DNA of 64,000 nt, taken from positions 4,898,001-4,962,000 of the forward strand of contig NZ_CP108414.1 in assembly GCF_035978755.1 (NCBI RefSeq), in the 5' to 3' direction. This DNA is from Streptomyces sp. NBC_01298 (GTDB lineage: Bacteria; Actinomycetota; Actinomycetes; Streptomycetales; Streptomycetaceae). Made by a program: the position numbers and the translations under genes. The notes under the pieces were generated by a model, which worked only from the letters and a program-made list of their open reading frames with translations, was not told the origin of the DNA and did no database searches. Below are positions 6,215 to 47,175 of this stretch, in pieces (the stretch's first letter is position 1; every line of letters starts with the position of its first letter).

Positions 6215-6278
6215 CGGGCTCGGGGAGCCGGCCACCACCGGCTCCCGTCACCGGCTCCCACCTGTGCGAACAGCACGG

Positions 6279-6313: not shown

Positions 6314-6387
6314 TCGTGTATGTGAAGCTGTGTGCCGCTGCTGAGGATGAGGATCAGCGCACCGCGTGTCCGACGCCGAGTGGCGCG

Positions 6388-8059: not shown

Positions 8060-8311
8060 GGTGGTGACTCCCATGGAAGAGATGCGGCGGGAAAGACGCC
8101 CGCCCTGCGGGTGGGGGAGGGCGTGCTGGGAGCAGCGTAAGACCTCCGGAGCTCCGCGCCCCTCCCGGTCCGTAGATCGGGACACTCAAGGGTTAGAGAA
8201 GGGTTGGAGGAGGGGCGGGGAAGGGCCGGGGAAGGTTCGGGGAAGGGGGTGGCGCCGGGCCGGGGGCCGTCCGCCGGAGTAGCGCCGGGCGGGGCGGGGG
8301 AGTACGAGAGC

Positions 8312-9733: not shown

Positions 9734-9940
9734 ATGACCGCTCGCACCCCTGATGCCGAGCCGCTGCTGACCCCGGCTGAGGTTGCCACGATGTTCCGCG
9801 TGGACCCGAAGACGGTCACCCGTTGGGCCAAGGCTGGCAAGCTCACGTCCATCCGCACCCTGGGTGGACACCGCCGCTACCGCGAGGCTGAGGTCCGCGC
9901 ACTGCTTGCGGGAATTCCGCAGCAGCGCAGCGAGGCCTGA
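9734..9940 (+). CDS. bldC: BldC, MerR-like developmental DNA-binding protein
   Basis: A 68-residue protein consisting only of a MerR-type winged helix-turn-helix (LLTPAEVATMFRVDPKTVTRW, then the wing around LGGHRRYREAEV). It lacks the dimerisation helix and effector domain of full MerR proteins. As far as I recall, its sequence equals that of the S. coelicolor protein. Established work shows that BldC binds direct repeats cooperatively and delays entry into development. GAGGAGG precedes the ATG. It is monocistronic, closed by a strong intrinsic terminator at 10049. Confidence 0.98.
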   Translation: MTARTPDAEPLLTPAEVATMFRVDPKTVTRWAKAGKLTSIRTLGGHRRYREAEVRALLAGIPQQRSEA

Positions 9941-10048
9941 GGTTCCGCAGCACCACTTATTGCCGGGTCTATATCGGGTCCCCCAATCCGATGAGCCCCA
10001 CATAGCTTCAAACGGCCGGACCTGCCCCAACAGGTTCATCAGTCGTTC

Positions 10049-10089
10049 GATCGCGCTGGACTCCGCCGGGTCCAGCGCGATCTTTTTTT
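10049..10089 (+). terminator. Intrinsic terminator of bldC
   Basis: A perfect 12-bp inverted repeat GATCGCGCTGGA / TCCAGCGCGATC with a 10-nt loop is followed directly by seven T residues. This is one of the few canonical T-tailed terminators in the window. Confidence 0.93.
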
Positions 10090-10608
10090 ATGCCCTGGTC
10101 AGGGCGTTGTCGCGCTGATGTGCGGAGCCGGCCGGGGTGGGTGCAATGGCACATATAAAATCGAGTGGGCGTATGAGCACCATAAAAGCGTGCGTCTCAA
10201 AAACACGTTGGGTGACTCCCGTCACAGATGATCACTCTTGTGGATCAGGCAATGCACCCCGTAAAGGGACGTGTCGCGCAGACCGCATCATCCGAACGGG
10301 CGGTTTCCCGGGCCGCGGGCCGGCGGGTCGCGAGGGGGGCCGCGGGATGGCTCGCGGCCGGGTCCGGAGCCGGCCGCGGGCAGGCCGCGCGAGGCCCCGG
10401 CGGGGCTTCGGGCGGCGTGGGGGCGGGAGTTTGCCCGCAGGGCCCGCCGGGCGCCTCCAGGAGGGCTCCGGGGCGCCGTGAGGGCCCGGGTGGGGCTTCG
10501 GGTGCTCCAGGGGGCCAATCGGGGCCGTGGGGCGGGCTGGTGGGCCGATGGGCCGCGCCCGTACGCGTGTGCCCGTACGCGGGCGCCCGTAGAAGAAGCG
10601 GGAAACGC
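10090..10608. other. Gene-free spacer between bldC terminator and tRNA-Asp
   Basis: The first about 200 bp are unusually AT-rich for this genome (ACATATAAAATCG, CATAAAAGCG). The remaining about 300 bp are a GC-rich, imperfectly repetitive stretch (GGGGCTTCGGG-like units). Open frames here have no coding bias that I trust and no ribosome sites. Confidence 0.6.
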
Positions 10609-10644
10609 GTCAGGGCCCGCATCCCTGGGGATGCGGGCCCTGAC
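10609..10644 (-). terminator. Terminator hairpin downstream of tRNA-Asp
   Basis: A perfect 16-bp inverted repeat (GTCAGGGCCCGCATCC / GGATGCGGGCCCTGAC, 4-nt loop) starts 9 bp beyond the 3' end of the minus-strand tRNA-Asp. On that strand it is followed by a weak T-rich run. Confidence 0.85.
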
Positions 10645-10652
10645 GATCTTGC

Positions 10653-10725
10653 GAACCTGACGGGACTTGAACCCGCGACCTCCACCTTGACAGGGTGGCG
10701 AGCTAACCAACTGCTCCACAGGTCC
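10653..10725 (-). tRNA. tRNA-Asp (anticodon GTC)
   Basis: A 73-nt cloverleaf without encoded CCA. The anticodon stem-loop is CCACC-CTGTCAA-GGTGG, anticodon GTC. The D-arm (GAGCAGTTGGTTAGCTC) and T-arm (GCGGGTTCAAGTCCCGT) are normal, and the acceptor is GGACCTG/CAGGTTC with one G-T pair. It is identical in sequence to the copy at 17167-17239. Confidence 0.95.
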
Positions 10726-10794
10726 TTGATTTGCGGCCGCTGGGCGGCTGCGAATCAGACTGTACCGCAGCTCAGGGGGTGTAGTCGAACTCGA

Positions 10795-22388: not shown

Positions 22389-22461
22389 GGGCCATTAGCT
22401 CAATTGGCAGAGCAGCGGACTTTTAATCCGTTGGTTGTCGGTTCGAGTCCGACATGGCCTA
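22389..22461 (+). tRNA. tRNA-Lys (anticodon TTT), integration target
   Basis: A 73-nt cloverleaf with anticodon arm GCGGA-CTTTTAA-TCCGT (TTT) and T-arm GTCGGTTCGAGTCCGAC. The acceptor GGGCCAT/ATGGCCT has a terminal G-T pair. Its 3' part from 22417 on is duplicated at 45422, marking insertion of the mobile element. Since the core includes the anticodon loop to the 3' end, the tRNA is rebuilt intact on integration. Confidence 0.97.
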
Positions 22462-22472
22462 CTGCTCGCAGG
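22417..22472. repeat. attL core (56-bp direct repeat)
   Basis: The core runs from the anticodon stem (GGACTTTTAATCCG) through the tRNA-Lys 3' end to TGCTCGCAGG. It is identical to 45422-45477. Similarity continues imperfectly for about 80 bp more on both sides of the element, through a terminator hairpin. Confidence 0.95.
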
Positions 22473-22594: not shown

Positions 22595-24109
22595 TCAGGA
22601 GGCGGACGAACGGGCACGAGGTACCAGCTGGGCCGCCGCTTCTGCGGCTGCCTGGTCTACCTCGGGGAGCAGGCTCGTGTACGTGTCCGAGGTCAGCGTG
22701 ATCGTGGAGTGCCGGAGCGTCTCCTTGATCGTGTGGAGGTCGCCGCCACCGCCGTGGGTGAGGGTGGCCGAGACGTGGCGTAGATCACGAAGGGTGATCG
22801 GCGGCAGATCGGTGCGGGCGAGTATCTGCCGGAAGGTCTCCGACGCCGTGCCGGGGTGGAGCCAGGAGCCGTCCTCCTGGGTGAAGACCTTGCCTGTGTC
22901 CTGCCAGGCCGGACCCCACTTCTTCCGCTCCGCGAGCTGGCGTACGCGGTGCTCCCGCAGGGCGGCCACGTTCAGGCTGTCCAGCGCGATGGTGCTGGCG
23001 CTGCCGTCCGTCTTCGGTGCGGACTCGTACGGGTCCCAGCCGTCCACCACGATCTCCTTGGCCGGCGTGATCTGCCCGCCTTCCAGGTCGACGTCGGACC
23101 AGTCCTGGCCGACGCACTCGCCGCGACGCAGACCGCGGGTACCGGAGAGGTGGAAGAGGGCGTACAGCCGGTCGCCCTCGGCCTCGTCGAGGAAGGCACC
23201 GAACTGGGCCGGGGTCCAGACCATGACGGGGGAGGGCTTCTCGCCGGTGAGGCGCCACCGGGCCACGCGGGCGTCTGTCCACAGCAGGGGCTTCGGGCGC
23301 TTGCCGGACTCCAGCTCTACGTGGGACGCCGGGTTGAAGATGATGAGCTGCTGGCGTATCGCTCCGTTCAGCGCCGCCCGCAGGGTGCGGCGGATGCTCT
23401 GCCGGGTCGCGGGCCCCGTGGGCTTCCGGAAGGGCTCCATCGCGGCGAGCTTGGCCCGCTCGGCGGCCAGGAGTGCCCGCTCGGCCGCGACCGGCCTGCC
23501 GGCCTTGCTCGGCTTGCAGCGGGCGATCTGCTCGCGCCGGGCCAGGTTGTGGGCCTCGATCGCCTCGTTGGCATCGGCAAGGGCGTCGAACATCTCGACC
23601 AAGTGGGCGACGTTCAGCCGGTCGAGGCGGAGATGCCCGATGCGGGGCCGGAGGTGGACGCGGATGTGGGAGGCGTAGCCGTTCGTCGTGGTCTTGCGCG
23701 TCTTCTTCGACGCGAGCCAGCGGTCCAGCCATTCGCCGACGGTGATCGACCCGAGGAGCGAGGTTCCGGCCCGCAGTCGGCGCCGGGTCTCCTCGACGTC
23801 AGGGAGCGGCGCCTTCTCATCGGCCACTTGCTCCAGGAGTGCCGCGATGCTGGCGACGCTCTCGGGGTCGTCCGCCGCCGGTATGCCCAGGAGAGCACGT
23901 GCGTGGTCCAGGTCGGCCTGCGCCGCCTTCAGGCTCTCGTACCCGGCGCGGTTGAAGGAGCGGCGGGTGCCGTCCTCGCGGGGCGGGAGTTCCTGGCGTA
24001 CGGAGTAGGAGCCGTGCTTGCGGCTGGACAGCTTGGGGCACGTCTTGCCAAGCGGCTTGCCGGTCTTCGGGTCGCGGCAGTAGCAGCGGCGGTGGGTGGA
24101 GCCCTTCAA
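22595..24109 (-). CDS. int: Tyrosine-type site-specific integrase of the element
   Basis: A 504-residue phage-type integrase. It has an N-terminal arm-binding region with an AP2-like stretch (residues 1-60), an SAM-like core-binding domain (VGEWLDRWLASKKTRKTTTNGYASHI), and a C-terminal catalytic domain. The catalytic domain has the first Arg in TRGLRRGECVGQDW, the LRDLRHVSATLTHGGG box, and the terminal Tyr in TLTSDTYTSLLP. In the usual HxxR box the His is Arg here, a change seen in several actinomycete integrases. The stop lies 134 bp from the tRNA-Lys 3' end, as expected for a tRNA-specific element. It overlaps the XRE gene by 4 bp. Confidence 0.96.
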   Translation of the reverse strand: MKGSTHRRCYCRDPKTGKPLGKTCPKLSSRKHGSYSVRQELPPREDGTRRSFNRAGYESLKAAQADLDHARALLGIPAADDPESVASIAALLEQVADEKAPLPDVEETRRRLRAGTSLLGSITVGEWLDRWLASKKTRKTTTNGYASHIRVHLRPRIGHLRLDRLNVAHLVEMFDALADANEAIEAHNLARREQIARCKPSKAGRPVAAERALLAAERAKLAAMEPFRKPTGPATRQSIRRTLRAALNGAIRQQLIIFNPASHVELESGKRPKPLLWTDARVARWRLTGEKPSPVMVWTPAQFGAFLDEAEGDRLYALFHLSGTRGLRRGECVGQDWSDVDLEGGQITPAKEIVVDGWDPYESAPKTDGSASTIALDSLNVAALREHRVRQLAERKKWGPAWQDTGKVFTQEDGSWLHPGTASETFRQILARTDLPPITLRDLRHVSATLTHGGGGDLHTIKETLRHSTITLTSDTYTSLLPEVDQAAAEAAAQLVPRARSSAS

Positions 24110-26654: not shown

Positions 26655-26720
26655 CCCGGCACGACCCGTCGCGTCCCGTCGCATCGCAGGTCAACCCAGG
26701 GACGAGTGGCAGGCCCGCAA

Positions 26721-26859
26721 CGAGTCGACTCGACATCAAGACTCGACCCGTACCTGCTCTGACCAGCCCGGCGACGAGTCGCAACGAGACCGCGCCACCC
26801 CGAGTTGCCCCTCACCCAGCCCTGCCCTGCCCCGGTACGGGTGAGGCCGCCCCATCCCT
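26721..26859. repeat. Direct repeat copy 1 in the origin-like region
   Basis: It starts with CGAGTCGACTCGACATCA and runs through GACGAGTCGCAACG to GTGAGGCCGCCCCATCC. It matches 27087-27229 with scattered substitutions and small indels. Confidence 0.8.
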
Positions 26860-27044: not shown

Positions 27045-27091
27045 ACTCGTCTCACCGGCCCGGCACGCAGTATCGGGCCGGTGAGACGAGT
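27045..27091. repeat. 18-bp inverted repeat (hairpin 2)
   Basis: ACTCGTCTCACCGGCCCG pairs perfectly with CGGGCCGGTGAGACGAGT around an 11-nt loop. It runs directly into direct repeat copy 2. This is a good candidate for a relaxase-recognised inverted repeat. Confidence 0.9.
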
Positions 27092-27229
27092 CGACTCGAC
27101 ATCAGGACTCCACCCGTACCTGCGCTGACCAGGCCTGCGACGAGTCGCAACGGGACCCGCCACCCTCAGGCGGCCCAGCCCAGCCCTGCCCGGCCCTGCC
27201 CCGGTACAGGTGAGGCCGCCCCCATCCCT
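27087..27229. repeat. Direct repeat copy 2 in the origin-like region
   Basis: The second copy of the repeat described for 26721-26859. It begins inside the right arm of hairpin 2 and ends just before the DUF2637 ribosome site. Confidence 0.8.
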
Positions 27230-28998: not shown

Positions 28999-30666
28999 TT
29001 GATCGCGAAGATCGGCAAGGCCGGCGCCAACACCCGAGGCGTCCTGAACTACCTCTACGGACCCGGCCGCGCCAACGAGCACACCGACCCCCACCTCGTG
29101 GCCTCGTGGGACGGCTTCGCCCCCGACCCCGGCCGCGACGAGACGGCCACCCTCGCCCGCCTCGCCAGCGCCCTCGACCTGCGGGTGAAGCAGGCAGGCG
29201 ACCGCGCCCCGGAGAAGCACGTGTGGCACTGCTCGGTCCGGGCCGCGCCCGAAGACCGAACCCTGTCCGACGACGAGTGGGCCACGATCGCCCGCCGGGT
29301 CCTCAACGCCACCGGCATCGCGCCGGCAGGCGACCCTGACGCCTGCCGGTGGGTCGCGGTCCGCCACGCGGAGGACCACATCCACATCGTGGCCACCAAG
29401 GTCCGAGGCGACCTCACCAAACCCCGCAACTGGAACGACTACCTCCGCGCCCACAAGGAACTGGCCGCGATCGAGAAGGAGTACGGCCTGCGCCAGGTCA
29501 CACTCGGCGACCGCACCGCAGCCAAGAAGCCGACCCGCGCCGAACAGGAGAAGGCCCGCCGCACCGGTACGGCCACTACGCCCCGCGAGAGGCTGCGCGC
29601 CACCGTCCGTACCGCGGTAGCGGCTGCCACCAGCACCGAGGAGTTCTTCACCATCCTCCGCAGCACCAAGGTGCTGGTGGACATCCAGCACTTCCCCTCC
29701 GGCGACATCCGCGGCTACAAGGTCGCCCTCCCCGGTGACACCAACGCCCAGGGTGAGCCCGTGTGGTTCTCCGGTTCCACCCTCGGACCCGACCTGTCCT
29801 ATCCGAAGATCAGCGAACGCCTTGCGCCCACCGAAACCGCTTCCACAGATCGGCACCCTGGGCGTCGGCGTACGGCGTGGCAGCAGGTCACCGCAGCGGC
29901 CGACCGTATCCCCGATCTGCTGACGGAGACCGATGACCCTGCGGGCCAGGCGCACATCACCGTGCTCGCCGAAACCCTCGACGTCCTCCCCCTGATCGCC
30001 CCCGCCGCGTACAAGCCGCAGCTCGCTCAGGCAGCGGCCACATTCGAGCGGGCCAGCCGTTCCCGCATCCGCGCCCGCCACCAGCAAGCGCGGGCCACAC
30101 GCCGGGCCATCAAGGCGATCGTCCGTGAACCCGCGCCCAAGGACGGAGCCCTCCTCGCGATCCTCCTCGACGCCGTCCTTCTGGCCGTCGTCGCAGCACA
30201 GCACTGGCACCACACCCGCCACCACGACCAGCAGGCCGAAGCCGCCCGCCAGACAGCCGAACACCTGCACGCCGTCTACCAGGCAGCCACCAGCCAGCCC
30301 CTGACCGCGATCCACCAACGCGGCCTGCGCCTGGCTCTACCCGTGCAACAGAGGCAGGCCGTCCTCGTCAGCCAGGCCCTGCCGGACCTGGCTGAGCAGA
30401 TCCTCGCCGAACCCGGCTGGCCCGCCCTCGCCGCCACCCTCACCAACACGACAGCCGCCGGCCACGACCCCGCCGCCCTGCTCACCCAGGCCGCCCGTCA
30501 CCGGGAGCTCGACACCGCCGGCTCCCTCAGCGAAGTCCTCGTCTGGCGACTGCACCGCATCGCCGACCTGAACCCCCAACCCGCCACAGGTGCCGCACGC
30601 AGGTCAGCCCCGCCCCGGGTCACCAAACCTGCCACCTCCGCCGACCGCCCCCGCAGGACCCGATGA
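28999..30666 (+). CDS. MobA/VirD2-type relaxase
   Basis: A 555-residue nickase of the relaxase/mobilization nuclease family. The N-terminus MIAKIGKAGANTRGVLNYLYGPGRANEHTDP carries candidate nicking tyrosines (Tyr18, Tyr20). The metal-binding histidine motif HAEDHIH is at 123-129, preceded by WVAVR. A Lys/Arg-rich middle and a helical C-terminus (about 300-530) likely contact the coupling protein. It would cut oriT and pilot the DNA. The TTG start follows the mobC TGA directly. It ends with ATGA overlap into the ParB-like gene. Confidence 0.93.
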   Translation: MIAKIGKAGANTRGVLNYLYGPGRANEHTDPHLVASWDGFAPDPGRDETATLARLASALDLRVKQAGDRAPEKHVWHCSVRAAPEDRTLSDDEWATIARRVLNATGIAPAGDPDACRWVAVRHAEDHIHIVATKVRGDLTKPRNWNDYLRAHKELAAIEKEYGLRQVTLGDRTAAKKPTRAEQEKARRTGTATTPRERLRATVRTAVAAATSTEEFFTILRSTKVLVDIQHFPSGDIRGYKVALPGDTNAQGEPVWFSGSTLGPDLSYPKISERLAPTETASTDRHPGRRRTAWQQVTAAADRIPDLLTETDDPAGQAHITVLAETLDVLPLIAPAAYKPQLAQAAATFERASRSRIRARHQQARATRRAIKAIVREPAPKDGALLAILLDAVLLAVVAAQHWHHTRHHDQQAEAARQTAEHLHAVYQAATSQPLTAIHQRGLRLALPVQQRQAVLVSQALPDLAEQILAEPGWPALAATLTNTTAAGHDPAALLTQAARHRELDTAGSLSEVLVWRLHRIADLNPQPATGAARRSAPPRVTKPATSADRPRRTR

Positions 30667-31778: not shown

Positions 31779-32192
31779 TCAGCGCTGAAGAGCGGAGTCC
31801 AGGTGCTGCTGGACCGGGTCGAAGAGGCCGTACGGGACGTACTGCGGGATCTCGGCGTGGGCAACCCACGCGAGCTCCGCCAGCTCGTCGGTGTCCGCTA
31901 CGTAAGCACTGCCACCGACCACCTCGCAGGCCGTGTAGGACATCAGCCGACCCGTGGCCGGGTGGACCCGCTCACCGAGCAACTTGACGGCCTCCACGTC
32001 CAGGCCCGTCTCCTCCTGGGTCTCACGGACAGCGGCTGCCTCGCGGGCCTCGCCCGGCTCGACCTCGCCGGCCGGAAACTGCCAGGAGAGCTGGCCCTCG
32101 CTGACCCGGCGCCGCACCATGAGCACACGTCCCTCATGCACCACGATGGCTGCGGCGATGCCCGGTCGCTCCTCAGCGTTCTGCTGCGTCAC
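31779..32192 (-). CDS. Nudix hydrolase with intact Nudix box
   Basis: A 137-residue protein. The Nudix box is complete (GEVEPGEAREAAAVRETQEETGL, fitting Gx5Ex7REUxEExGU), and the flanking strands VVHEGRVLMVRRRV and WQFPAGE are typical. It would cleave a nucleoside diphosphate linked to another moiety; the substrate is unknown. GTG 32192 has GGAGGAG 6 nt upstream and overlaps the TGA of the HTH-Nudix gene (GTGA). The two are one operon, divergent from the NDK operon. Confidence 0.9.
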   Translation of the reverse strand: MTQQNAEERPGIAAAIVVHEGRVLMVRRRVSEGQLSWQFPAGEVEPGEAREAAAVRETQEETGLDVEAVKLLGERVHPATGRLMSYTACEVVGGSAYVADTDELAELAWVAHAEIPQYVPYGLFDPVQQHLDSALQR

Positions 32193-32848
32193 GTCTGCTC
32201 CTCCAGGACTGCCAGGATGGGTGGGAAGATCGTATCGACGGGGATGAACCGGGTCAGGGAGTTTTTCGGAACCCACATGACGTCCGCGTTCTCCTCGACG
32301 TCGGCGTTGGCAGCCTCTCCCGCCAGGTACTCGCATAGGAAGTAGTCGCAGAGCACTCCGGTCACCGGGTGGAGGCGGCTGCCCAGGTGCTCGCGCACGG
32401 CGCAGTGGACCCCTGTCTCGTCCAAGGTTTCCCGCACCGTGGTGGTCTCGGCCTTGCCTCCGGGCTTGATCACACCGGCGGGGAACTGCCAGGTGATGCC
32501 CGATGCGTCGTCGTGCCGTCGGCACACCAGCAGGACCTGATCGTCACGAGTGACCACGGCGATAGCGACCCGGAGCGCCTGGGCGCCGACGGGGCTCGGC
32601 GCGGCAGGTCGGTGCTCGTTCGCGACCACGAGGGAGAACCGCTGACGGGCTGCCGACGGGGCCTGCTCGTGGGCTGAGTCCAGGAGTTGTTGCATCTCCT
32701 TACGCGGCACGACGGCGGGGTCGGCGTGCCAGGCCGCGACGGTTCGGACGGCGATGCCGAGCTGGGCAGCGAACTGCTCGTTGGTGAGCCGGAGCGCGGA
32801 CTGGAGCATGCATGCGTACCGCCCGTTCCAGAGCTCGATGACCTCCAC
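32189..32848 (-). CDS. HTH-like domain fused to a degenerate Nudix domain
   Basis: A 219-residue protein. Residues 1-75 look like an XRE/plasmid-type helix-turn-helix (LQSALRLTNEQFAAQLGIAVRTVAAWHADPAVVPRKEMQQLL). Residues 90-219 form a Nudix fold (WQFPAGVIKPGG, RETLDETGV). The box has Gly in place of the first catalytic Glu and Asp for one Glu of the EE pair, so hydrolysis may be weak or lost and the domain could be a ligand sensor. GTG 32848 was chosen for GGGGCGGCGC upstream; the open frame extends 117 bp further. Confidence 0.8.
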   Translation of the reverse strand: MEVIELWNGRYACMLQSALRLTNEQFAAQLGIAVRTVAAWHADPAVVPRKEMQQLLDSAHEQAPSAARQRFSLVVANEHRPAAPSPVGAQALRVAIAVVTRDDQVLLVCRRHDDASGITWQFPAGVIKPGGKAETTTVRETLDETGVHCAVREHLGSRLHPVTGVLCDYFLCEYLAGEAANADVEENADVMWVPKNSLTRFIPVDTIFPPILAVLEEQT

Positions 32849-33255
32849 GCGCCGCCCCTTCGTCGTCGCCGCTCTCGGTGCAGGAACCCGTGTGCCGAAG
32901 GTGCACTCCAACTGCACTGGCGCTTCATGGTCGCGCAGCGCGCACCCCGGAAGAATCGGAGTCACCGGGGCAAGGAATCACCTGATCGACGTTCCGGATC
33001 CAGAGCCCAATCGAGAGGCGCAAGGCCGCCGGACGACCACAGGGAGATATTAGATGCGCGCCTTCTTCGGATAGGAGGGACAGAGAAGTTGGCTGAATTC
33101 GATTCCTTGATCCAGTCTCTGCAGAGGCCCCATCCACCTCTGATCGCCACGGGACACCGCTGCTCGTCCCAGCCGCTTCACCGACGCCGGTAACCTCAGC
33201 AGGTGACGGCTGATTGCCCGTCATCTCCGGTTGCTAGCAAGGCGAAAGGGAGACA
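32849..33255. promoter_or_regulatory. Divergent promoter region between Nudix and NDK operons
   Basis: About 400 bp with no convincing gene. It separates the minus-strand HTH-Nudix operon from the plus-strand NDK-to-HATPase series, so it is where the HTH-Nudix protein might act. It contains an AT-richer segment (GGAGATATTAGATGCGCG near 33045) but no strong palindrome that I can see. The NDK ribosome site GGGAG lies at its right end. Confidence 0.5.
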
Positions 33256-33765
33256 ATGCCCGAGGATCAGGCACACACCGTGGAGCGCACGCTCGTCCTA
33301 CTGAAGCCCGATGCGCTGGCGCGTGGCCTGGCAGGCAGGGTCATCACGCGGTTCGAGGACGCCGCACTGAAGATCGTCGGAACGAAGATGAAGTGGATGG
33401 ACGAGGAATTCACTCGCCGCCACTACTTCGACCTGGAAGAACGGCTCGGATCGGAGGTCTATAACGTCACCTCCACATTCATGCAGCAGGGGCCGGTCAT
33501 CGCCCTGGTGCTGGAGGGCTACGACGCCATCGCCACGGTCCGCAAGATCGTCGGAAGCACCTATCCGAACCAGGCCCCCGCCGGCACCGTGCGAGGCGAC
33601 CTGTCGCACTACAGCGCCGCGGCCAGCGTCGCCTCCGGCAAGGCGGTCGCGAACCTCGTGCACGCCTCCGGCAATGCGGAGGAGGCCAAGCAGGAGGTGG
33701 AGCTGTGGTTCGAGAAGGACGAGCTGCAGGACTACAAGACGCTGGCCGAGATCTACACGTACTGA
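33256..33765 (+). CDS. Nucleoside-diphosphate kinase, accessory divergent copy
   Basis: A 169-residue NDK that moves the gamma phosphate of ATP to an NDP. The family order is kept: ERTLVLLKPDAL, ALKIVGTKMKWM, GPVIALVLEGYDAI, GTVRGDL, and the phospho-histidine His136 in NLVHASGN. It is about 30 residues longer than housekeeping NDKs. The main insertion (HYSAAASVASGKAVA) sits just before the active histidine, with a C-terminal extension. It heads a co-oriented series, which suggests it serves a dedicated pathway. Confidence 0.92.
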   Translation: MPEDQAHTVERTLVLLKPDALARGLAGRVITRFEDAALKIVGTKMKWMDEEFTRRHYFDLEERLGSEVYNVTSTFMQQGPVIALVLEGYDAIATVRKIVGSTYPNQAPAGTVRGDLSHYSAAASVASGKAVANLVHASGNAEEAKQEVELWFEKDELQDYKTLAEIYTY

Positions 33766-33845
33766 CGGCGGAGTGCGGCGTCACCGGTGGGACGCCGACG
33801 CGTTGAACACCACTGGGGTACGAACGTCTGACCTGAGAGGGCACC

Positions 33846-34145
33846 ATGACCAACCAGACCCGCCTGGCCTCCACCGACGAGCTGGAGTCGATCTTCCAGC
33901 GTGAGCTGGTGAGCGACCGCTGGGCGGCGACCGAGACCGCCTATGCCCTGGCGGTACGCCACCGCGACCTGGGCGACTGGCCCGCGTCCCGTGAGTGGGT
34001 CCAGCAGTGCCTCCGCCTCCTGGAGGGCTTCCCCAGCGAGACGGAGGAGCAGGTCGCCACGAGCCGCTCGTCGGTGGGCGGCGTCCAGCTGCCCACGTAC
34101 CTGCACTCCGGTGTGGTCCAGGCCCGCTTCGGCGACCTGGGCTGA
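33846..34145 (+). CDS. Small conserved hypothetical protein of the cargo operon
   Basis: A 99-residue soluble protein, largely helical (ELESIFQRELVSDRWAATETAYALAVRHRDLGDWPASREWV), ending in a loop and YLHSGVVQARFGDLG. The helix pair with WAxxxAxxLAxxxxDLGDW spacing is TPR-like, so it may bind a partner. No family is recognised. ATG 33846 has GAGAGGG upstream. It is 80 bp after NDK. Confidence 0.75.
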   Translation: MTNQTRLASTDELESIFQRELVSDRWAATETAYALAVRHRDLGDWPASREWVQQCLRLLEGFPSETEEQVATSRSSVGGVQLPTYLHSGVVQARFGDLG

Positions 34146-34278
34146 CACACGAGCGGCGGGGCCCCGGCCCAGCCGCACCACCCTGAGCACCAATTTCACA
34201 GCGCGTGGCCAACCGGACAGGCCCCCACGGCAGGGTCCGGCTGGCTTCGCCATGCCTGAAACGAGGAGACACCACCCC

Positions 34279-34863
34279 GTGGCCATCGAGATCGAGATGC
34301 GGGCCCGCTTCCCCAAGGAGTCCCACGACCAGCTGGTCGCCCGCCTGAAGGAGGATGGCGAGGACCTCGGCAACGACGACAAGCACATCTACTTCTACGT
34401 GCTGCCCGACCAGCTGCTGAAGGTCACCGACAACACCGCCGCCGGCACCGCCAAGATCACCCTCAAGGGGAGCAAGATCGGACAGGGCTCCGCATTCGCG
34501 GAGACGGAGTTCGCGATCGCCCCCGCCGACGTGTCCGCCGCGGTGAAGGTGTTCAACAGTCTCGGCTTCGAGGCCGCCATGCACGAGGCTTTCAACTTCC
34601 GGCACAACTACCGCTTCGACGGCATCGAGATCGCGGTCAAGTGGAGCGAGGCATGGGGCTACCACGCCGAGTTCGAGCTACTGCTCGACGACGAAGCCTC
34701 GGACGCCACCCGCGACGAAGCAACGGCCAAGATCATGGATGTGGCGGCGGAGCTGGGCATCACGCTGATGACCGAGCGGGAGCTGGCCGACTTCACCGCT
34801 GCCTTCGAGGCCGCCGAGCAGGAGCGGAAGGAGCGCGAGCAGCAGGCCGCGCCCCTCAGGTAG
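34279..34863 (+). CDS. CYTH-domain protein (class IV adenylate cyclase / triphosphatase-like)
   Basis: A 194-residue protein with the CYTH tunnel fold: an N-terminal EIEMRARF strand (ExExR in place of the usual ExExK), YFYVLPDQLLKVTD, KITLKGSK, TEFAIA, the RHNYRF strand, and the late acidic strand GYHAEFELLLDD. Members bind metal-triphosphate inside the barrel and make cAMP or hydrolyse thiamine triphosphate or polyphosphate. GTG 34279 has GAGGAG 10 nt upstream. It has a Glu/Gln/Lys-rich helical tail. Substrate unknown. Confidence 0.85.
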   Translation: MAIEIEMRARFPKESHDQLVARLKEDGEDLGNDDKHIYFYVLPDQLLKVTDNTAAGTAKITLKGSKIGQGSAFAETEFAIAPADVSAAVKVFNSLGFEAAMHEAFNFRHNYRFDGIEIAVKWSEAWGYHAEFELLLDDEASDATRDEATAKIMDVAAELGITLMTERELADFTAAFEAAEQERKEREQQAAPLR

Positions 34864-34903
34864 GAGCACGTCACCGCGGAGACCACCAAGGGGGTGGGCA
34901 CAC

Positions 34904-35668
34904 ATGAGCACGACCCCAGCAACCGCAACCCTGATCGACCAGGCTGCCCGTCGGCAGCTGCCGCTCCACCAGTACATGGACCGGGCCACCGTCGAGTGGA
35001 TCGAAGAGAACCGGCCCGACTTCACGAAGACAGCGCAGCCGGCCTTGGCTTCGACCGCGCGGGTTCTACTGAAGCAGTCCGCGCTGCCAGCCGCCTGGAT
35101 GGCGACGCCTCGCCTGTACACCTCGATCCACGGCGTCCGTCACAGCATGCGTACGGCCGCGCTGGCTGCCGTACTCGCCGACAGCCACGGGCTCGACGAT
35201 GCCGACACCGCCACGGTGGTCGTGGCCGCGGCCGTCCACGACTGCCAGCGCCGTCACGACAAGGACGACCAGGGGCACGGCGCCCGGGCGGCCATCTGGC
35301 TCGCCGCGAACGCGGACACCGTGTGGGGCCACTTCGACCTCACAGCCACCCCCCGCCGGATCGTGCAGGCGGCGACCGCCGTCCGCCTTCACGACGTCCC
35401 GTACGACGCTTTCACCGTCGACGACTGGCACGACCACTCGAAGGCGGAGTCGCTGGCGGACATCCTGAAGGCCGCCGATGCCCTTGACCGGTATCGGCTG
35501 CCGAAGGCCACCTGGTGGCCGGACGCCCGGCACGTCCGGGAGCCGGCCTTCGACCGGCACCGGGGCCTGGCCTTCGACCTGGTCCTCACCTCCGAGAAGG
35601 CCCACCTGGCAGGGGCCAGCAGCCCCGAGGCCGTCCGCTTCGCGCTGGCCCAGGCAGGGCTGGTGTGA
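34904..35668 (+). CDS. HD-domain phosphohydrolase
   Basis: A 254-residue protein with metal-binding HD signatures in order: His in HGVRHSMRTA (about 68), HD in VHDCQRRHD, and the distal Asp in KAADALDRYRL. HD enzymes release phosphates from nucleotides, including second messengers. It starts 40 bp after the CYTH gene and ends 2 bp before the next gene (TGACC ATG), so it is tightly coupled to the 463-residue unknown. Confidence 0.88.
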   Translation: MSTTPATATLIDQAARRQLPLHQYMDRATVEWIEENRPDFTKTAQPALASTARVLLKQSALPAAWMATPRLYTSIHGVRHSMRTAALAAVLADSHGLDDADTATVVVAAAVHDCQRRHDKDDQGHGARAAIWLAANADTVWGHFDLTATPRRIVQAATAVRLHDVPYDAFTVDDWHDHSKAESLADILKAADALDRYRLPKATWWPDARHVREPAFDRHRGLAFDLVLTSEKAHLAGASSPEAVRFALAQAGLV

Positions 35669-35670
35669 CC

Positions 35671-37062
35671 ATGGACTTCCTCGACGCCTACCACCTGTGG
35701 GCCGATGCCCACGCCTTCTACGGCAGCGGCCTCATCCCCAGCCCTGCCGACCCCGTCGACCCACTCGCGGCCCAGTCCGCCGCATGGGACCACCGCCTCG
35801 CGGAGGACACCCCGAACGGCCAGCTGCTGCGCCGCAACGCCCTCTTCGACGCCCTGAGCGGCGAGGGCAAGCTGCACCTCCTCCACGTCACCCACGCACT
35901 GGAGGAGATCAACCAGGAGGGCATGCTCTACCCCTCCGGCGGCTGCCTCGTCGGAAGCATCTACTGCGCCCCGCTCACCCCGACCGAGCAGGGCTTCCGC
36001 ATGCACAACCTGGCCTCGTACGTCCTGACCAGGGAGGCGCCGGCCTTCCTGGCCAAGCTCGGCATCACCGACCGCAGGCCCACGCCACTGATCATCGAGA
36101 TCGACACGCCGCCGGAGTCGTACCGGGGGCTGGCCGGCATCGACTACCTCCGGCTGGGCCTCATCCATCTGCAGATCTACAGCCACCTCGAATACCTGCT
36201 CAGCAAGAACGAGCGGCACCAGCTCCGCGAGACCGTCGTGGCCCGCGTCAAGAACTCGGCCGCCTTCCTCGCCACCGCCGCCGCCGTGGCCTACCAGGGC
36301 ACAGCCATCGCTCCGAAAGCCTTCCTCCGGCAGCTCGACGAGACCATCCCCCGCCTCCCGATCCTCGGCTACCTCTACTTCGAGGCCTTGGCGGAGTACC
36401 TGATGCTCCACTCCACCTCGCGCCACACCCGCCGCCTGGCGGAACTGGGGGAGCTGAACAACTGGCTCTACAAGGACCTGCTGTTCGCCTCCTTCCCTGC
36501 CCTGTCCGGCAAGTTCGACCTCGCGAAGTTCCGCCCCCGGCCCGACCAGCTGGCCGCGCTCCTCCGCCGTGTCGATCCCGCCATCGACCCCGAGCACGCC
36601 GCCACGTACCTCGTCGAGCGCATCAGCCACCTCGTGGCCGCACGGCTCTTCACCCCTGGCGAGATCCCCGAAGCCTGGCACCACACCCGCTGGGAGTTCG
36701 ACGCCCTCGCCACCCAGCTCGGCCCGCTCCTGGGCCACCTCATCCACCGGGAGCTGCGCACCTTCGGCCGTTACCCCGACTTCTACTTCTACTTCGACCA
36801 GTACAAGGCGCTGCAAGCCTGGAACTACTGGAACCACATGGACATCGTCGCCCCGTTCAACGGCACGATGCCCAAGGGCGAGATCGGCATCAACCCGGCC
36901 TACCCCAACCTGGCATACCGCATCTGGCGCGCCGAGCAGGACGACACCGGCCACCTCCACCCGGCCGAGGAGCTCTCCCTCACCATCGCCCCGCGCCTCG
37001 TGGACATCAAGTACACGCTGATGCGCAACAAGCAGTGGGCCCCGGCCCCCAGCGCCGCGTAA
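35671..37062 (+). CDS. 463-residue protein of unknown function
   Basis: I do not recognise the family. The N-terminal quarter contains LHLLHVTHALEEINQEGMLYPSGGCLVGSIYC. Its H-x-T-H ... I--G-LYPSGG pattern recalls the first motif of ADP-ribosyltransferase-like folds (for example DarT), but I cannot trace the remaining motifs. Next come a predicted strand LIIEIDTPPESYRG and a long helical middle (residues 170-370). An aromatic-rich region follows (YPDFYFYFDQYKALQAWNYWNHMDIV). There is no signal peptide or TM segment. The start is fixed by its 2-bp distance from the HD gene. Confidence 0.85.
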   Translation: MDFLDAYHLWADAHAFYGSGLIPSPADPVDPLAAQSAAWDHRLAEDTPNGQLLRRNALFDALSGEGKLHLLHVTHALEEINQEGMLYPSGGCLVGSIYCAPLTPTEQGFRMHNLASYVLTREAPAFLAKLGITDRRPTPLIIEIDTPPESYRGLAGIDYLRLGLIHLQIYSHLEYLLSKNERHQLRETVVARVKNSAAFLATAAAVAYQGTAIAPKAFLRQLDETIPRLPILGYLYFEALAEYLMLHSTSRHTRRLAELGELNNWLYKDLLFASFPALSGKFDLAKFRPRPDQLAALLRRVDPAIDPEHAATYLVERISHLVAARLFTPGEIPEAWHHTRWEFDALATQLGPLLGHLIHRELRTFGRYPDFYFYFDQYKALQAWNYWNHMDIVAPFNGTMPKGEIGINPAYPNLAYRIWRAEQDDTGHLHPAEELSLTIAPRLVDIKYTLMRNKQWAPAPSAA

Positions 37063-37122
37063 CCCACCACCTCACCCAAAGCACCACCTCACCCCAACCC
37101 CTTCATGATCAGGAGTCCTGTC

Positions 37123-37860
37123 ATGAGCAACTCCGGCATGCCCTCAGTCGACCTCCTCGGCGAGCAGATCGCCTCCCTCCTCGACGACCCGGCCACCACC
37201 CACGGGCTGGCCCGCGGCCTACGCGCCGCTGCCCGCGAGATCGAACTCCACCGCTACCACCACACGAGCCGGCGCGCCTGGCCCAACGGCCGCATCGACC
37301 TCAAGCCCGCCAAGGTCCAGATCGGCGGCGGCGCCCACCGGATCGACGGCTTCTTCAACATCGACGCCGTCCCGCCGGCCGACCTTCTCTGGGACGTCCG
37401 CGAGGGCATCCCCCTGCACGACAACACCGCCCAGACGCTGTTCTCCGAGCACTTCCTGGAGCACATCGACTACCCCCACTCGGCTAAGCAGTACGCCATC
37501 GAGGCCCACCGCGTCCTCGCGCCCGGCGGCCAGATCATCACGGGCGTCCCCGACGCCGCTTTCGCCCTCAGCCACTACCCCGGCTCCCTCGACGCCTCCG
37601 CCGAGATGATCGAGCGCTGGTACGCCAAGCGGAATTGCCTTGGGGACATCAACACCCAGCTCGACCTCGTCAACCTCGTCTTCCGCGACCAGGACGACGA
37701 CCCCACGTACACCCAGCACCTATGGGCCTACGACCACGAGAAGCTCGTCCAGCTCTTCACCGAGGCTGGCTTCACCACCGTCGAGCCCTGGACCTTCGAC
37801 CCCACCATGGCCAACCCGAAACGCCGCTGGGGCAGCGTCTACGTGATCGCGACGAAGTAG
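37123..37860 (+). CDS. Class I SAM-dependent methyltransferase
   Basis: A 245-residue methyltransferase. A helical N-terminus precedes the Rossmann start (VQIGGGAHRIDGFFNID), the FSEHFLEHIDY motif, the VLAPGGQIITGVPD post-II strand, and the end block LWAYDHEKLVQLFTEAGF. This is the Methyltransf_11-like type that acts on small molecules. Motif I reads IGGG instead of the common GCG. AGGAG lies 7 nt before ATG 37123. It is fifth or sixth in the cargo series; substrate unknown. Confidence 0.88.
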   Translation: MSNSGMPSVDLLGEQIASLLDDPATTHGLARGLRAAAREIELHRYHHTSRRAWPNGRIDLKPAKVQIGGGAHRIDGFFNIDAVPPADLLWDVREGIPLHDNTAQTLFSEHFLEHIDYPHSAKQYAIEAHRVLAPGGQIITGVPDAAFALSHYPGSLDASAEMIERWYAKRNCLGDINTQLDLVNLVFRDQDDDPTYTQHLWAYDHEKLVQLFTEAGFTTVEPWTFDPTMANPKRRWGSVYVIATK

Positions 37861-37971
37861 CCCGAGAACCGGCGAGCCCCCGGGAGGCACCCCTCCCGCC
37901 GCCCGGAGGCCGCCCCTCAGCCCACGGCACACCGCACGCCACCCGGCCACGCCGTCGAGGAAGCCACCCGC

Positions 37972-38514
37972 ATGAGCCAGCCCTTGCCTCCCGTCAGCGA
38001 TCTCGCGCTCGCAGCCATCCCGAACGCCGTCTACTGGGCCCGTTGCCACACCGTCGACGTACTCCAACGCTGGCACTTCCCCGCCGAAGGCACCGAGGTG
38101 GCCCGTCTTCTCGTCTCGGAGCTCGCAACCAACGCCATCCAACACGCACGTCCACTGGGGCCACCAGACGCCGCACTGCCCGCTCCGGACACAATCCTCC
38201 TGCGCCTCTGGCCAACCCCGACGGGCGTCGTCCTCCAGGTCGGCGACAACGACCCCCGCCCGCCGACGCCCCAGTCCCCCAGCGACGGCGCCCTGGGCGG
38301 CCGTGGCCTCCTGCTCACCGCAACCATGGCCACCCGCTGGGGCTACCACCCCCGCCGTCCCTACCCTGGCAAGTTCGTCTGGGCCGAGGTATCGGCCCGC
38401 CCTACGACCGCCCTCACTGAACTGGCTGATGGCCGACTCGATACGACCCCGCTCCTCCTCGGACAAAGTCCTGACCGCCCTGCGGGAGCTCTAGAAGACT
38501 GCTGGGGACTGTAA
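37972..38514 (+). CDS. HATPase_c protein (RsbW/SpoIIAB-like anti-sigma kinase fold)
   Basis: A 180-residue ATP-binding protein with N-box LLVSELATNAIQHA, G1 box VGDNDPRPP and G2 box GGRGLLL. These are typical of the many Streptomyces anti-sigma-factor-like serine kinases. The C-terminal 40 residues are disordered. It closes the co-oriented cargo series (111 bp after the methyltransferase), so it may regulate it or belong to a separate signalling pathway. Confidence 0.88.
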   Translation: MSQPLPPVSDLALAAIPNAVYWARCHTVDVLQRWHFPAEGTEVARLLVSELATNAIQHARPLGPPDAALPAPDTILLRLWPTPTGVVLQVGDNDPRPPTPQSPSDGALGGRGLLLTATMATRWGYHPRRPYPGKFVWAEVSARPTTALTELADGRLDTTPLLLGQSPDRPAGALEDCWGL

Positions 38515-39969: not shown

Positions 39970-41019
39970 CTATCCGCCGGTTGGGCCTGCGTTGCCGCGG
40001 GTTTCGGTGTGGTGGCGGTCCCTGCGTAGGTCGAGGGTGGCGCAGTGGAAGGAGCCTCCCAGCGCCTGGACGTTGCGGAAGGGCACGGCCAGCGGAGTCA
40101 TGCCGTAGGAGACGAGCAGTGCCTGGAGCTTTTCGTCGCGGGCCTCGGTGAGGACGTGCTGGTGGTCGACCACGAGCAGGTTCATGCTGACCCAGGGGCT
40201 GGTCATGTAGAGCGGGGGGCTGTCGCGAAGCTCGGGGACAGGGGCGGGGACCAGCTCCCAGCCGTCCATCGGGGAACCGGCAAGCTGGGCGGGATCGAGC
40301 CGCTCCGGGTTGTACAGGGCCAGCCCCTCGCGCAGTGGGCACAGCGTCGCGTCGATGTGCATGGCGTGCGGATCGTCCGGCTGGATCAGATGGACGCGGG
40401 TGTCGGGGCCGAGTTGGGTGCGCAGGTGTGCGATACCCGAGCGGTTGGTGACGTGGCTGAGCTGGCCCACGAGGGTACGAGGCCCCAGGCGGAGGAAATC
40501 GGCGGCGTCCCAGGCTGGTCGTCCCTCGCCGATCACCCAGTGGCCCGAGCGGGACGGGCCACTGGTGAGGGGGTCGACGGCCAGGTCCACCGCTGACGGC
40601 AGCCAGCGTGCACCCGATTGGCGGAATTGTTGAAGGAGTGGCCAGTAGGCGAGCAGTTCGTGGCGGCGGCTGCGCCAGGCCATCGGTGCCTCGATGACAC
40701 GGTTGCCCATGACGAGCAGTGAGTCGCGCGGCATGGCGGCGCAGTAGCCGTCCAGGCCCGACCAGGGCACGCGACGCGGCCGGTGCACTACTGAGCCCAA
40801 GCTCTCCAGCAGTTCCGCGAGGGCTTGCAGCTCCTGCTCCGCGGCTTCCACGATCCAGGACGGGAAGGGGTGGCCGGGCCGGAACTCCGCCCAGTGCTCG
40901 CGGGGCATGGTCGCCTCGATCATGCGGGGGTCCTCGTTGGGGAACATCGCCCCGTACGCCGTGCCGACCACCACTTCGCGCAGCGGACTCCACTCGTCGC
41001 ACGCGTCCACCACGATCAT
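39970..41019 (-). CDS. Glycine/inosamine-type L-arginine amidinotransferase
   Basis: A 349-residue enzyme of the AGAT family. It moves the amidino group of arginine to an amine, for example glycine (guanidinoacetate) or an inosamine in aminoglycoside pathways. Active-site landmarks are the Asp in AWDAADFLRLG, the His in HAMHIDATLCPLREG, and the catalytic Cys326 in GGSFHCATLDLRRD. ATG 41019 has GGGAG 7 nt upstream. It stands alone on the minus strand of the element's cargo. No other guanidino-pathway gene is visible beside it. Confidence 0.92.
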   Translation of the reverse strand: MIVVDACDEWSPLREVVVGTAYGAMFPNEDPRMIEATMPREHWAEFRPGHPFPSWIVEAAEQELQALAELLESLGSVVHRPRRVPWSGLDGYCAAMPRDSLLVMGNRVIEAPMAWRSRRHELLAYWPLLQQFRQSGARWLPSAVDLAVDPLTSGPSRSGHWVIGEGRPAWDAADFLRLGPRTLVGQLSHVTNRSGIAHLRTQLGPDTRVHLIQPDDPHAMHIDATLCPLREGLALYNPERLDPAQLAGSPMDGWELVPAPVPELRDSPPLYMTSPWVSMNLLVVDHQHVLTEARDEKLQALLVSYGMTPLAVPFRNVQALGGSFHCATLDLRRDRHHTETRGNAGPTGG

Positions 41020-45421: not shown

Positions 45422-45477
45422 GGACTTTTAATCCGTTGGTTGTCGGTTCGAGTCCGACATGGCCTACTGCTCGCAGG
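45422..45477. repeat. attR core (56-bp direct repeat)
   Basis: It is identical to 22417-22472. It contains only the 3' half of tRNA-Lys, so no functional tRNA is made here. To its right the original chromosomal tRNA flank continues. Confidence 0.95.
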
Positions 45478-45999: not shown

Positions 46000-47175
46000 G
46001 TGGTGGGGCTGGGCCGGCAGGGCAGGGGCGAGCGCGTCTTCGGCGCGGTCGCCGGCAGCGCCCTGATCCGGCGGATCGTCAAAATGCTTCCGGGCACCCT
46101 GATCGTCCTCGGCTTCCTCTTCGACGTGCTGACCCCGCCCAGCTTCACCGGCTCCCCCTTCTTCTCCGCCGCCCCGCTCATCGCGGCCCCGTTGTTCAGC
46201 CTCCGGGCCACCGTCCTCACCGGGATCCTCGCCACCCTCGCCGTGGTCGTGCTGCACCTCTACAACGGCACCACCTTCAAGGTGGAGGCCATGACCGAGC
46301 TGGCCACCGTCCTGACCGTCTCCGGGCTGGCCACCCTGATCAACATCGTCGTGCGGCGCGGTACGGAGCAGCTCGCCTCCGCGCGCGGGATCGCCGAAGC
46401 CGCTCAGCGCGCCGTACTGCCGACGCCCGCCGAGCGGATCGCGGGCCTCCAGGTCTCCGCGTCGTACGAGGCCGCGCAGGCCGACGCGTTCATCGGCGGC
46501 GACCTCTACGCCGTCCAGGACACCCCCTACGGCGTGCGCCTCGCGGTGGGCGACGTACGGGGGAAGGGACTCGGGGCGGTCGAGGCCGTGGCCGTGGTGC
46601 TCGGGGCGTTCCGGGAGGCGGCCGAGAGCGAGCCCACCCTGGAGGGGGTGGCGCGGCGGCTGGAGCGGGCGCTGGCCCGGGAGGGGAACCGGCGCGACAG
46701 CCTGGACGCGGTGGAGGGGTTCACCACGTGCGTGCTCGGTGAGATCCCGGCGGGCGCCGGCCTGCTGCGGCTCGTCAACCGGGGCCACCCCGAACCGCTG
46801 CTGCTGTACGCGAACGGCGGCCTCGCGGAGCTGGCCCCCGTCGAGCCGGCGCTGCCGCTGGGCATGGGGGAGCTGGGCGGCTGGCCCGACCGGGTGCAGG
46901 AGTGGCCCTTCCCGGAGGGGGCGACGCTGCTCCTGTACACGGACGGGCTGACCGAGGCCCGGGACGGCAGCGGGGCCTTCTACGATCCGGCGGTCCGGCT
47001 GCGCGGTCGGGTGTTCCCCGGGCCCGACGAGTTGCTGAGCGCGCTCGCCACCGATGTCCGCCGGCACACGGGCGGCGCGGCGACGGACGACATGGCCCTG
47101 CTGGCGGTGGCCAGGCCGGGGGCGGGGCAGCCGAGCCGGCGGCGGACGGTTCGGGTGGTCCCGAAAGGGGACTGA
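46000..47175 (+). CDS. Membrane-bound PP2C (SpoIIE-family) serine phosphatase
   Basis: A 391-residue protein. Four hydrophobic segments lie in residues 25-130 (LPGTLIVLGFLFDVL; APLIAAPLFSL; VLTGILATLAVVVLHL; VLTVSGLATLINIVV). The PP2C domain follows with metal-binding Asp in IGGDLYAV, VGDVRGKGL, FTTCVLGEI, NRGHPEPLLL, YTDGLTEARD and the final TDDMALL. It would dephosphorylate anti-sigma antagonists in response to a membrane signal. GTG 46000 has GGAG 6 nt upstream. Confidence 0.9.
   Translation: MVGLGRQGRGERVFGAVAGSALIRRIVKMLPGTLIVLGFLFDVLTPPSFTGSPFFSAAPLIAAPLFSLRATVLTGILATLAVVVLHLYNGTTFKVEAMTELATVLTVSGLATLINIVVRRGTEQLASARGIAEAAQRAVLPTPAERIAGLQVSASYEAAQADAFIGGDLYAVQDTPYGVRLAVGDVRGKGLGAVEAVAVVLGAFREAAESEPTLEGVARRLERALAREGNRRDSLDAVEGFTTCVLGEIPAGAGLLRLVNRGHPEPLLLYANGGLAELAPVEPALPLGMGELGGWPDRVQEWPFPEGATLLLYTDGLTEARDGSGAFYDPAVRLRGRVFPGPDELLSALATDVRRHTGGAATDDMALLAVARPGAGQPSRRRTVRVVPKGD

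Follow-up and report, generated by a model that had tools for sequence, protein, structure and literature searches.

This analysis concerns a block of six adjacent genes on the forward strand of a 64,000-nucleotide window from Streptomyces sp. NBC_01298 (assembly GCF_035978755.1, contig NZ_CP108414.1, positions 4,898,001 to 4,962,000); coordinates below are those of the window. In order, the genes encode a nucleoside diphosphate kinase (NDK), a 99-residue TPR-like protein, a CYTH protein, an HD phosphohydrolase, a 463-residue protein that we call D463, and an S-adenosylmethionine (SAM)-dependent methyltransferase. Two Nudix genes diverge from the block, an HATPase gene follows it, and the whole lies on an integrated mobile element (Table 1). 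We are all but certain that the six genes are a genuine module, whose anatomy, linkage and conservation can be observed directly. Judged from its sequence, D463 is an undescribed protein family and the marker of the module.

The linkage is clearest among 150 Streptomyces genomes, which we searched with profiles of D463, CYTH, HD, the methyltransferase, the 99-residue protein and the helix-turn-helix (HTH)-Nudix protein. D463 was found at 19 places in 17 genomes: eight full-length and one truncated copy of type A (at least 73% identical to the D463 of the window), nine of type B (41–45% identical) and one fragment. CYTH occurs in 8 of the 150 genomes, every time with a type A D463 no more than about 1 kb away, and the 99-residue gene occurs in the same eight, always near D463. 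HD, present in 11 genomes, adjoins D463 in all of them (eight type A, three type B). Nine of the ten genomes with the methyltransferase have it beside D463 (the eight carriers and the truncated locus of G092), and the tenth match is a 54-residue remnant elsewhere, with a stop codon. The preliminary description of this region had proposed a neighbourhood search as the check on its gene set; that search finds the genes together on unrelated mobile elements and, in Streptomyces, almost without exception.

We extended the comparison to other bacteria and to viral and plasmid sequences. A scan of GTDB contigs gave 104 relatives of D463, the best 80 of which were kept; with three plasmid loci, seven from IMG/VR and two from this genome, the window being one, they form a set of 92 neighbourhoods, numbered with L as the genomes are with G. 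Counts over this set are lower bounds, because some contigs end inside the region. CYTH, HD and the methyltransferase all lie within 5 kb of D463 in 53 of the 92 loci, the window included, and by taxon these core loci belong to Streptomycetaceae, Micromonosporaceae and Patescibacteria. They also hold the 99-residue gene (42 of 53), NDK (41), a Nudix gene (36), a P-loop kinase (9), a deaminase (5), an HAD protein (5), HAM1 (3), a thymidylate-synthase-like (TS-like) protein (1), a second methyltransferase (4) and a second CYTH-like protein (4); in L026–L028 this last label is based on resemblance to an L027 protein that Pfam does not match. The gene most often found with D463 is HD, within 5 kb of it in 71 of the 92 loci. 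Mirror-tree correlations among the block genes, uncorrected for host relatedness, range from 0.68 to 0.92. IMG/VR was scanned separately with CYTH, methyltransferase and HD profiles, within the limits of short peptide patterns; so limited, each of these three profiles returned only the two contigs with a type A D463, and five more contigs carry type B. D463 was not found in the INPHARED phages. Six plasmid records contain it, all less than 60% identical, and the three regions examined resemble type B; CYTH was not found on plasmids.

Proteins of the block and the divergent promoter

Table 1. Features of the block, its flanks and its carrier element in the window
Feature	Position	Strand	Remarks
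Left attachment (att) site, last 45 bp of tRNA-Lys	22418..22462	+	exact copy at 45423-45467
Tyrosine integrase of carrier	22595..24109	-	Phage_integrase 8e-9
Relaxase of carrier	28999..30666	+	PF03432 6e-10
Nudix hydrolase, intact box, loosely linked	31779..32192	-	Pfam NUDIX 3.3e-21; PADLOC PDC-S07 9.4e-16
HTH-Nudix, degenerate box, loosely linked	32189..32848	-	Pfam NUDIX 1.2e-14; PADLOC PDC-S07 1.5e-13
Repeat TGCACT-N4-CTGCACT, candidate operator	32902..32918		1 match in window at up to 1 mismatch, 0.04 expected
CGCCGGTAACCTCAGC, then inverted repeat TGACGG/CCGTCA	33185..33223		about 30 bp before NDK; ten intergenic regions aligned
NDK (nucleoside diphosphate kinase)	33256..33765	+	Pfam NDK 1.6e-37; core of actinobacterial form
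99-residue TPR-like protein	33846..34145	+	weak TPR matches, best 0.0043
CYTH (CyaB/triphosphate-tunnel type)	34279..34863	+	Pfam CYTH 1.3e-4, just below curated cut-off
HD phosphohydrolase	34904..35668	+	Pfam HD 2.2e-3, just below curated cut-off
D463, module marker	35671..37062	+	starts 2 bp after HD
SAM-dependent methyltransferase	37105..37860	+	Methyltransf_11 2.1e-5; profile match 1vlm 8e-6
HATPase_c_2 protein, peripheral, not core	37972..38514	+	Pfam 7.7e-12
Right att site, exact 45-bp copy	45423..45467	+	element about 23 kb

All genes named in the preliminary description are present close to where it had placed them; the Pfam matches, invariant residues and PDB profiles agree with its assignments, and the 2-bp spacing it reported is that between HD and D463. 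Its core gene list stands, with the 99-residue reading frame, which it overlooked, to be added. The HATPase gene, which it counted as a member, has to be removed: among 41 Streptomycetaceae loci it follows the block 12 times. Every core gene is under purifying selection, with ratios of nonsynonymous to synonymous substitution (dN/dS) of 0.05–0.46 over ten pairs of chosen near relatives a gene (seven relatives for HATPase); for the 99-residue gene the ten pairs give 0.10–0.29. No Rfam family, sigma-70 promoter or terminator was found in the region.

The NDK of the block is 42% identical to the other NDK of the genome. The CYTH gene has a further ATG at 34252, and its profile matches the PDB entries 2een (5e-9) and, far more weakly, the class IV cyclase 2fjt (0.07). 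The CYTH motif is ExExK; the block protein has ExExR, invariant in 15 sequences from two phyla. In HD, residues H76, H80, H112-D113, H125, D192 and D195 are invariant in 19 sequences from two phyla, and the profile matches 2pq7 (3e-4). An alternative start of the methyltransferase is possible at 37123.

D463 has 500 relatives among the candidates scored, and an alignment of 24 diverse sequences contains 50 invariant columns. The window protein has no match in Pfam or PADLOC and none in the PDB better than 0.34, so that the 463-residue unknown of the preliminary description keeps that status; over 25 relatives, Pfam gives a weak COX6C match in two members and otherwise matches in single members. 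We considered and rejected an ADP-ribosyltransferase: the stretch LLHVTHALExIxxxG resembles DarT by eye, yet comparison with a profile of four DarT sequences, a weak test, gave an hhalign probability below 1%, the glutamate initially chosen as partner of the motif is not invariant, and no PDB or Pfam relative was found. The family of 5-hydroxymethyldeoxyuridine (5-hmdU) DNA kinases, intended for a comparison of its helical domains with D463, was found neither in 119 genomes nor in the control genomes.

The two divergent Nudix proteins differ in their catalytic boxes. The Nudix hydrolase keeps the box glutamate in all 31 relatives scoring at least 60 bits (38 matches altogether), whereas HTH-Nudix lacks the first box glutamate in all 26 relatives that bear a box, a further 7 of the 33 having no box match. 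Its Nudix domain is C-terminal (residues 132–237 of a 258-residue translation). For the window protein no HTH domain was matched at a threshold of 0.1; the relative in L043 matches HTH_3 at 0.0076, below cut-off. The divergent promoter region around the TGCACT repeat is largely conserved in ten aligned sequences, and an exact 16-mer of the CGCCGGTAACCTCAGC region recurs in 12 of 164 loci; the inverted repeat beside it, recognised by eye, is not constant, differing in L003, L021 and L086. Because the box glutamate is lost and the sequence of the divergent promoter is conserved, we predict that HTH-Nudix is probably a ligand-sensing regulator, and the sensing role proposed in the preliminary description thereby gains support.

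The Nudix pair itself is loosely tied to the block. HTH-Nudix lies near the block in seven of the eight carrier Streptomyces genomes, the G038 copy having an internal stop, and relatives of 55–62% identity occur at six other places: in G015, G046, G050, G100 and G118, all without D463, and at a second place in this genome. At the four of these six that were examined, no gene seen within about 4 kb, the Nudix pair apart, matched a gene of the core. The pair is present on one strand and divergent from NDK, as the preliminary description had it, and occurs without D463, which does not fit its membership of the set.

Carrier elements, breadth and related loci

Because the 45-bp tRNA-Lys repeats enclose an integrase, a relaxase and mobilisation genes, the block is cargo of an integrated element of about 23 kb, as had been proposed. 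Between the att repeats lie also an HTH protein, a DUF3631 protein, a DUF2637 protein and a MobC/NikA-like protein. Relaxase genes like that of the window lie near the block in L003, L009, L010, L017, L018 and L033; L005 shows a weak match.

Three further features of the element and its surroundings are recorded here. Two sets of direct repeats (26720–26791 and 27086–27157, 72 nt; 26815–26853 and 27184–27222, 39 nt), 92% alike and 366–369 bp apart, lie between the DUF3631 and DUF2637 genes and are possible iterons or a possible origin-of-transfer (oriT) region. An arginine deiminase/amidinotransferase-like gene at 39970–41019 on the reverse strand (ADI 7e-4, below the Pfam cut-off) has no relative in L001–L092 at E 1e-6. 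A SpoIIE phosphatase gene (46000–47175) lies just outside the element.

Most type A loci of Streptomycetaceae share a single gene order. In the Micromonosporaceae loci L043, L044 and L048 the methyltransferase stands before NDK, and in L043 and L044 a kinase is added after D463 and the Nudix pair is downstream. D463 also occurs in ten loci of Patescibacteria (including Nomura-, Woese-, Shapiro-, Sung-, Portnoy- and Parcubacteria), very small bacteria distant from soil actinobacteria, and in four unassigned metagenome-assembled genomes (MAGs). CYTH and HD are both near D463 in 13 of these 14 loci, counting L067, the exception (L058) starting inside D463; the methyltransferase is present in 11. 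Some of them add a kinase, a second CYTH, a deaminase (in L059 a cytidine/dCMP deaminase match of 4e-8) or a TS-like protein (in L052 a thymidylate-synthase-like match of 2e-10), which is similar to thymidylate synthase and, to a lesser degree, to CMP 5-hydroxymethylase. L052, L057 and L060 have the TS-like gene and no methyltransferase was found in them (L060 being only 7.5 kb long), which hints at an exchange of one-carbon enzymes; L069 holds both.

Genes of the block are also found joined: in L067, from an unassigned MAG, CYTH and HD form one frame of 473 residues (8462–9880), and the relative P0119 is a D463 fused to a methyltransferase of another kind. In L036, from S. acidiscabies, CYTH is split by an inserted transposase-like gene (7288–9243), with HD, D463 and the methyltransferase still open. 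A quick D463 tree, with long branches in the candidate phyla radiation (CPR), was drawn without L001, L022, L055 and L058 and without any plasmid or IMG/VR locus. In it the sequences of Streptomyces type A, of Micromonosporaceae, of CPR and of type B each fall on one side of a branch.

The type B clade, about 40–45% identical, has other neighbours. GT2 glycosyltransferase genes are accompanied either by an epimerase and HD or by a nucleotide-sugar dehydrogenase, GT4 and a TauD oxygenase. Among solved structures, those closest to the TauD protein are hydroxylases of lysine, asparagine and natural products. Several type B loci sit in prophages. This genome has a type B locus of its own at 1.08 Mb of the largest contig (L169, G000:C1:1072001-1090000, 5129–10745), with genes resembling the TauD, GT2, nucleotide-sugar dehydrogenase and GT4 genes of other type B loci. 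Two plasmid loci with a type B-like D463 hold further genes: a gene annotated as Pycsar effector family about 5 kb away in a Nonomuraea plasmid (L084, 18369–18959), and, in a Streptomyces plasmid, consecutive genes for radical SAM, dTMP kinase and Nudix proteins at a distance of about 6 kb (L083, 3216–5844).

Several settings of the block are those of phages and defence systems. In L086 a run with neck, major-tail and tape-measure genes begins 30 bp after the methyltransferase, and a similar run of phage genes follows the block in L087, L031 and L032, with at least an ABC-transporter-like gene between in L087 and L031. Relatives of D463 directly follow pPIWI-RE genes in L041, L042 and L045; in L041 PADLOC recognises PprPDDEXK, PprRE, PprDinG and PprPIWI, with D463 as the fifth gene, overlapping the fourth, and in both L041 and L042 the ends of D463 and PprPIWI overlap. 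L047 has pieces of two pPIWI-RE operon genes, and the pPIWI group on the D463 tree included L046, which has no pPIWI-RE match. Of 43 type A loci, with 486 kb of flanking DNA, 6 have a large adenine-methyltransferase gene nearby (of those tested, by PADLOC type IIG in L003 and L010, type I in L006, L040 and L049). The control, 60 pieces of Streptomyces DNA of 20 kb chosen at random and 1.2 Mb in total, has 2, a count made on NPP[YFW] only, in called genes above 350 residues. L036 adjoins a Cas1c gene, and its neighbours resemble further Cas genes by eye. A PADLOC scan of 141 flanking genes of 90–900 residues (211 before deduplication) from 38 of the 41 Streptomycetaceae GTDB loci, leaving out the window and IMG/VR, matched 146 families at 1e-8, the commonest (Cas1 and type I methyltransferase) in two members each and without a same-library control.

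Known systems and the function of the module

We compared the block with several known systems, the library scans (Pfam, NCBIfam and PADLOC) covering ten window proteins. Clover is described as defending with an HD dNTPase tuned by a nucleotide signal (PMC12265719). The block resembles it in the HD phosphohydrolase, the proposed nucleotide signal and the conflict setting, and differs in comprising six genes, with CYTH, NDK, a methyltransferase and D463. Among the ten proteins no Pol-beta nucleotidyltransferase was matched in any of the three libraries, and the HD protein, although its motif is conserved, matched no dNTPase model in them. Nor was there a PADLOC match to a CD-NTase or Pyc cyclase (CBASS/Pycsar), a Pfam match to radical SAM (viperin), or any match to PIWI, DinG or Ppr proteins, which are present in the relative L041; the only PADLOC matches of the window proteins are PDC-S07, a candidate model, for the Nudix pair and values of 0.025–0.033 for the methyltransferase. 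The likeness to pPIWI-RE lies in the overlapping gene ends noted above; in its section 8 the 2013 paper presents a set of three genes and also stand-alone genes, with no D463-like gene among them (PMC3702460).

Other comparisons concern single proteins. With class IV adenylyl cyclases and CYTH triphosphatases (2fjt, 2een) the block CYTH shares profile similarity and conserved charged residues; unlike the cyclases, it carries the arginine form of the motif, and the block has no recognised cyclic-nucleotide effector. In NrtR of M. smegmatis, hydrolase activity is reported as lost and ADP-ribose as releasing the protein from DNA, while prototype NrtR can also be active (PMC6800001). HTH-Nudix resembles it in the decayed box, the probably joined HTH and the conserved promoter repeats alongside, and differs in having its HTH-like part N-terminal and its Nudix domain C-terminal, where NrtR has the reverse. 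The Nudix protein Pif of pSAM2 is reported to block redundant conjugation, and actinomycete integrative and conjugative elements (AICEs) often carry Nudix genes (PMC3218068). Pif and the AICE trio mdp-nud-xre are like the present locus in placing HD, Nudix and HTH proteins on integrating elements of actinomycetes, whereas the D463/CYTH/NDK/methyltransferase block goes unmentioned in the part of that survey covered here. Some CPR versions share a TS-like enzyme and a kinase with the pathways of CMP 5-hydroxymethylase and nucleoside antibiotics, and no CMP 5-hydroxymethylase is among the window proteins scanned.

A synteny survey of Streptomyces contains neither 'CYTH' nor 'nucleoside diphosphate' in its main text and touches NUDIX clusters in passing (PMC13118837), and in listings and abstract openings of the open PMC literature we found no description of the block. 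Because neither such a description nor, among the window proteins, the features of CBASS/Pycsar, viperin, pPIWI-RE or the Clover nucleotidyltransferase were found, the module appears to be new as a gene system.

We interpret the block as an accessory module whose enzymes would make or remodel a nucleotide or nucleoside polyphosphate. This chemistry would help in conflict with phages, rival elements or rival cells, and mobile elements and prophages would retain the block for that reason; we give this reading a probability of about 0.45. The enzyme families suggest nucleotide chemistry, as do the accessory partners (kinase, deaminase, TS-like, HAM1, Nudix and HAD proteins), which would mostly handle nucleotides. 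We envision HD and D463 as the enzymatic heart. A triphosphate would come from NDK or, in certain other lineages, from a P-loop kinase, and CYTH would act on it by hydrolysis or cyclisation; the methyltransferase would add a one-carbon group, a step that the TS-like protein may take over in some Patescibacteria. An intact Nudix enzyme, where present, would destroy the product or by-products, and the degenerate HTH-Nudix would sense the product and control the divergent promoter. The substrate, the order of steps, the activity of D463, DNA binding by HTH-Nudix and a defensive rather than purely metabolic role are what we infer in this scheme. The preliminary description had suggested a set that makes, senses and destroys a modified nucleotide or triphosphate, be it a signal, a defence molecule or a small natural product; co-inheritance, the nucleotide theme and sensing survive from it, whereas the HATPase and a fixed Nudix membership do not. 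In a bolder form of our reading, which we hold to be rather doubtful, D463 would represent a new class of enzyme, central to a nucleotide-based conflict system whose product is a novel modified nucleotide, either a signal or an antimetabolite directed at polymerases. Actinobacterial mobile elements, prophages and Patescibacteria would have this system in common, and in one clade it would be coupled to a pPIWI-RE defence operon.

Several points weigh against a nucleotide-based conflict module. HD is missing within 5 kb in 21 of the 92 D463 loci, the pPIWI-RE set among them, and PADLOC matches no core gene better than 0.025. The Nudix pair, occurring also in genomes without D463, is separable, and its PDC-S07 match may simply reflect the common Nudix domain. 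The restriction enrichment amounts to six genes against two, two of the six coming from a single strain (L039, L040), and mobile islands, where defence genes are to be expected in any case, are a biased background for such a count. The exchange of TS-like protein and methyltransferase involves three loci, one on the 7.5-kb contig, with both genes together in L069.

An unlikely, still serious, alternative is that the genes are a small cluster for the biosynthesis of a modified cofactor or of a natural product of nucleoside or nucleotide type, carried like other metabolic genes and with no role in defence. The main evidence for it is the type B setting, which with its glycosyltransferases, nucleotide-sugar dehydrogenase or epimerase and TauD looks like biosynthesis; the TS-like, kinase and deaminase additions of CPR loci and the presence of CMP 5-hydroxymethylase among the structural relatives of the TS-like protein point the same way, as does the transporter-like gene right after the block in the prophages L031 and L087. 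Yet no transporter or resistance gene is constant among the families found in at least five loci, the ABC-ATPase, a common family, occurring somewhere in 15 of 82, and carriage by Patescibacteria and operon linkage to pPIWI-RE would be odd for a natural product. The pPIWI-RE, restriction and prophage settings favour conflict as the type B settings favour biosynthesis; because of the pPIWI-RE linkage and the carriage by prophages we lean towards conflict over pure biosynthesis.

It is improbable that the block attacks the nucleotide pool, HD and CYTH depleting nucleoside triphosphates or their deoxy forms during infection, as in dNTPase defence and Clover, with NDK and Nudix tuning the pool. 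The conserved HD and CYTH sites and the Clover precedent would suit this; simple depletion, however, needs neither a methyltransferase nor D463, and the scans that matched no nucleotidyltransferase and no dNTPase model also speak against it. We see an equally slim chance of a function of element against element, such as Pif-like conjugal immunity, in which the Nudix genes would be the heart and the rest accessory. The Nudix nature of Pif, the frequency of Nudix genes on AICEs and the HTH-Nudix relatives elsewhere in 6 of the 150 genomes, five without D463, agree with it, but the block stands without a Nudix gene within 5 kb in L025, L029, L033 and L034 and occurs in prophages and Patescibacteria as well. 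That unrelated genes merely hitch-hike on the same islands is very improbable: mobile islands do gather unrelated cargo, and the HATPase and the Nudix pair behave so, but the near-perfect co-occurrence, the content kept while the order changes, the fusions and the spread over two phyla speak against it for the block.

Taken together, a block that two distant phyla have kept, and that is found on an integrated mobilisable element, within prophages and elsewhere on chromosomes, offers a concrete target for new nucleotide chemistry, and its accessory enzymes limit the possible substrates to a class small enough to be assayed directly. If the module is defensive, it would represent a further nucleotide-based immune strategy; if it is biosynthetic, it would be a compact route to a modified nucleotide.

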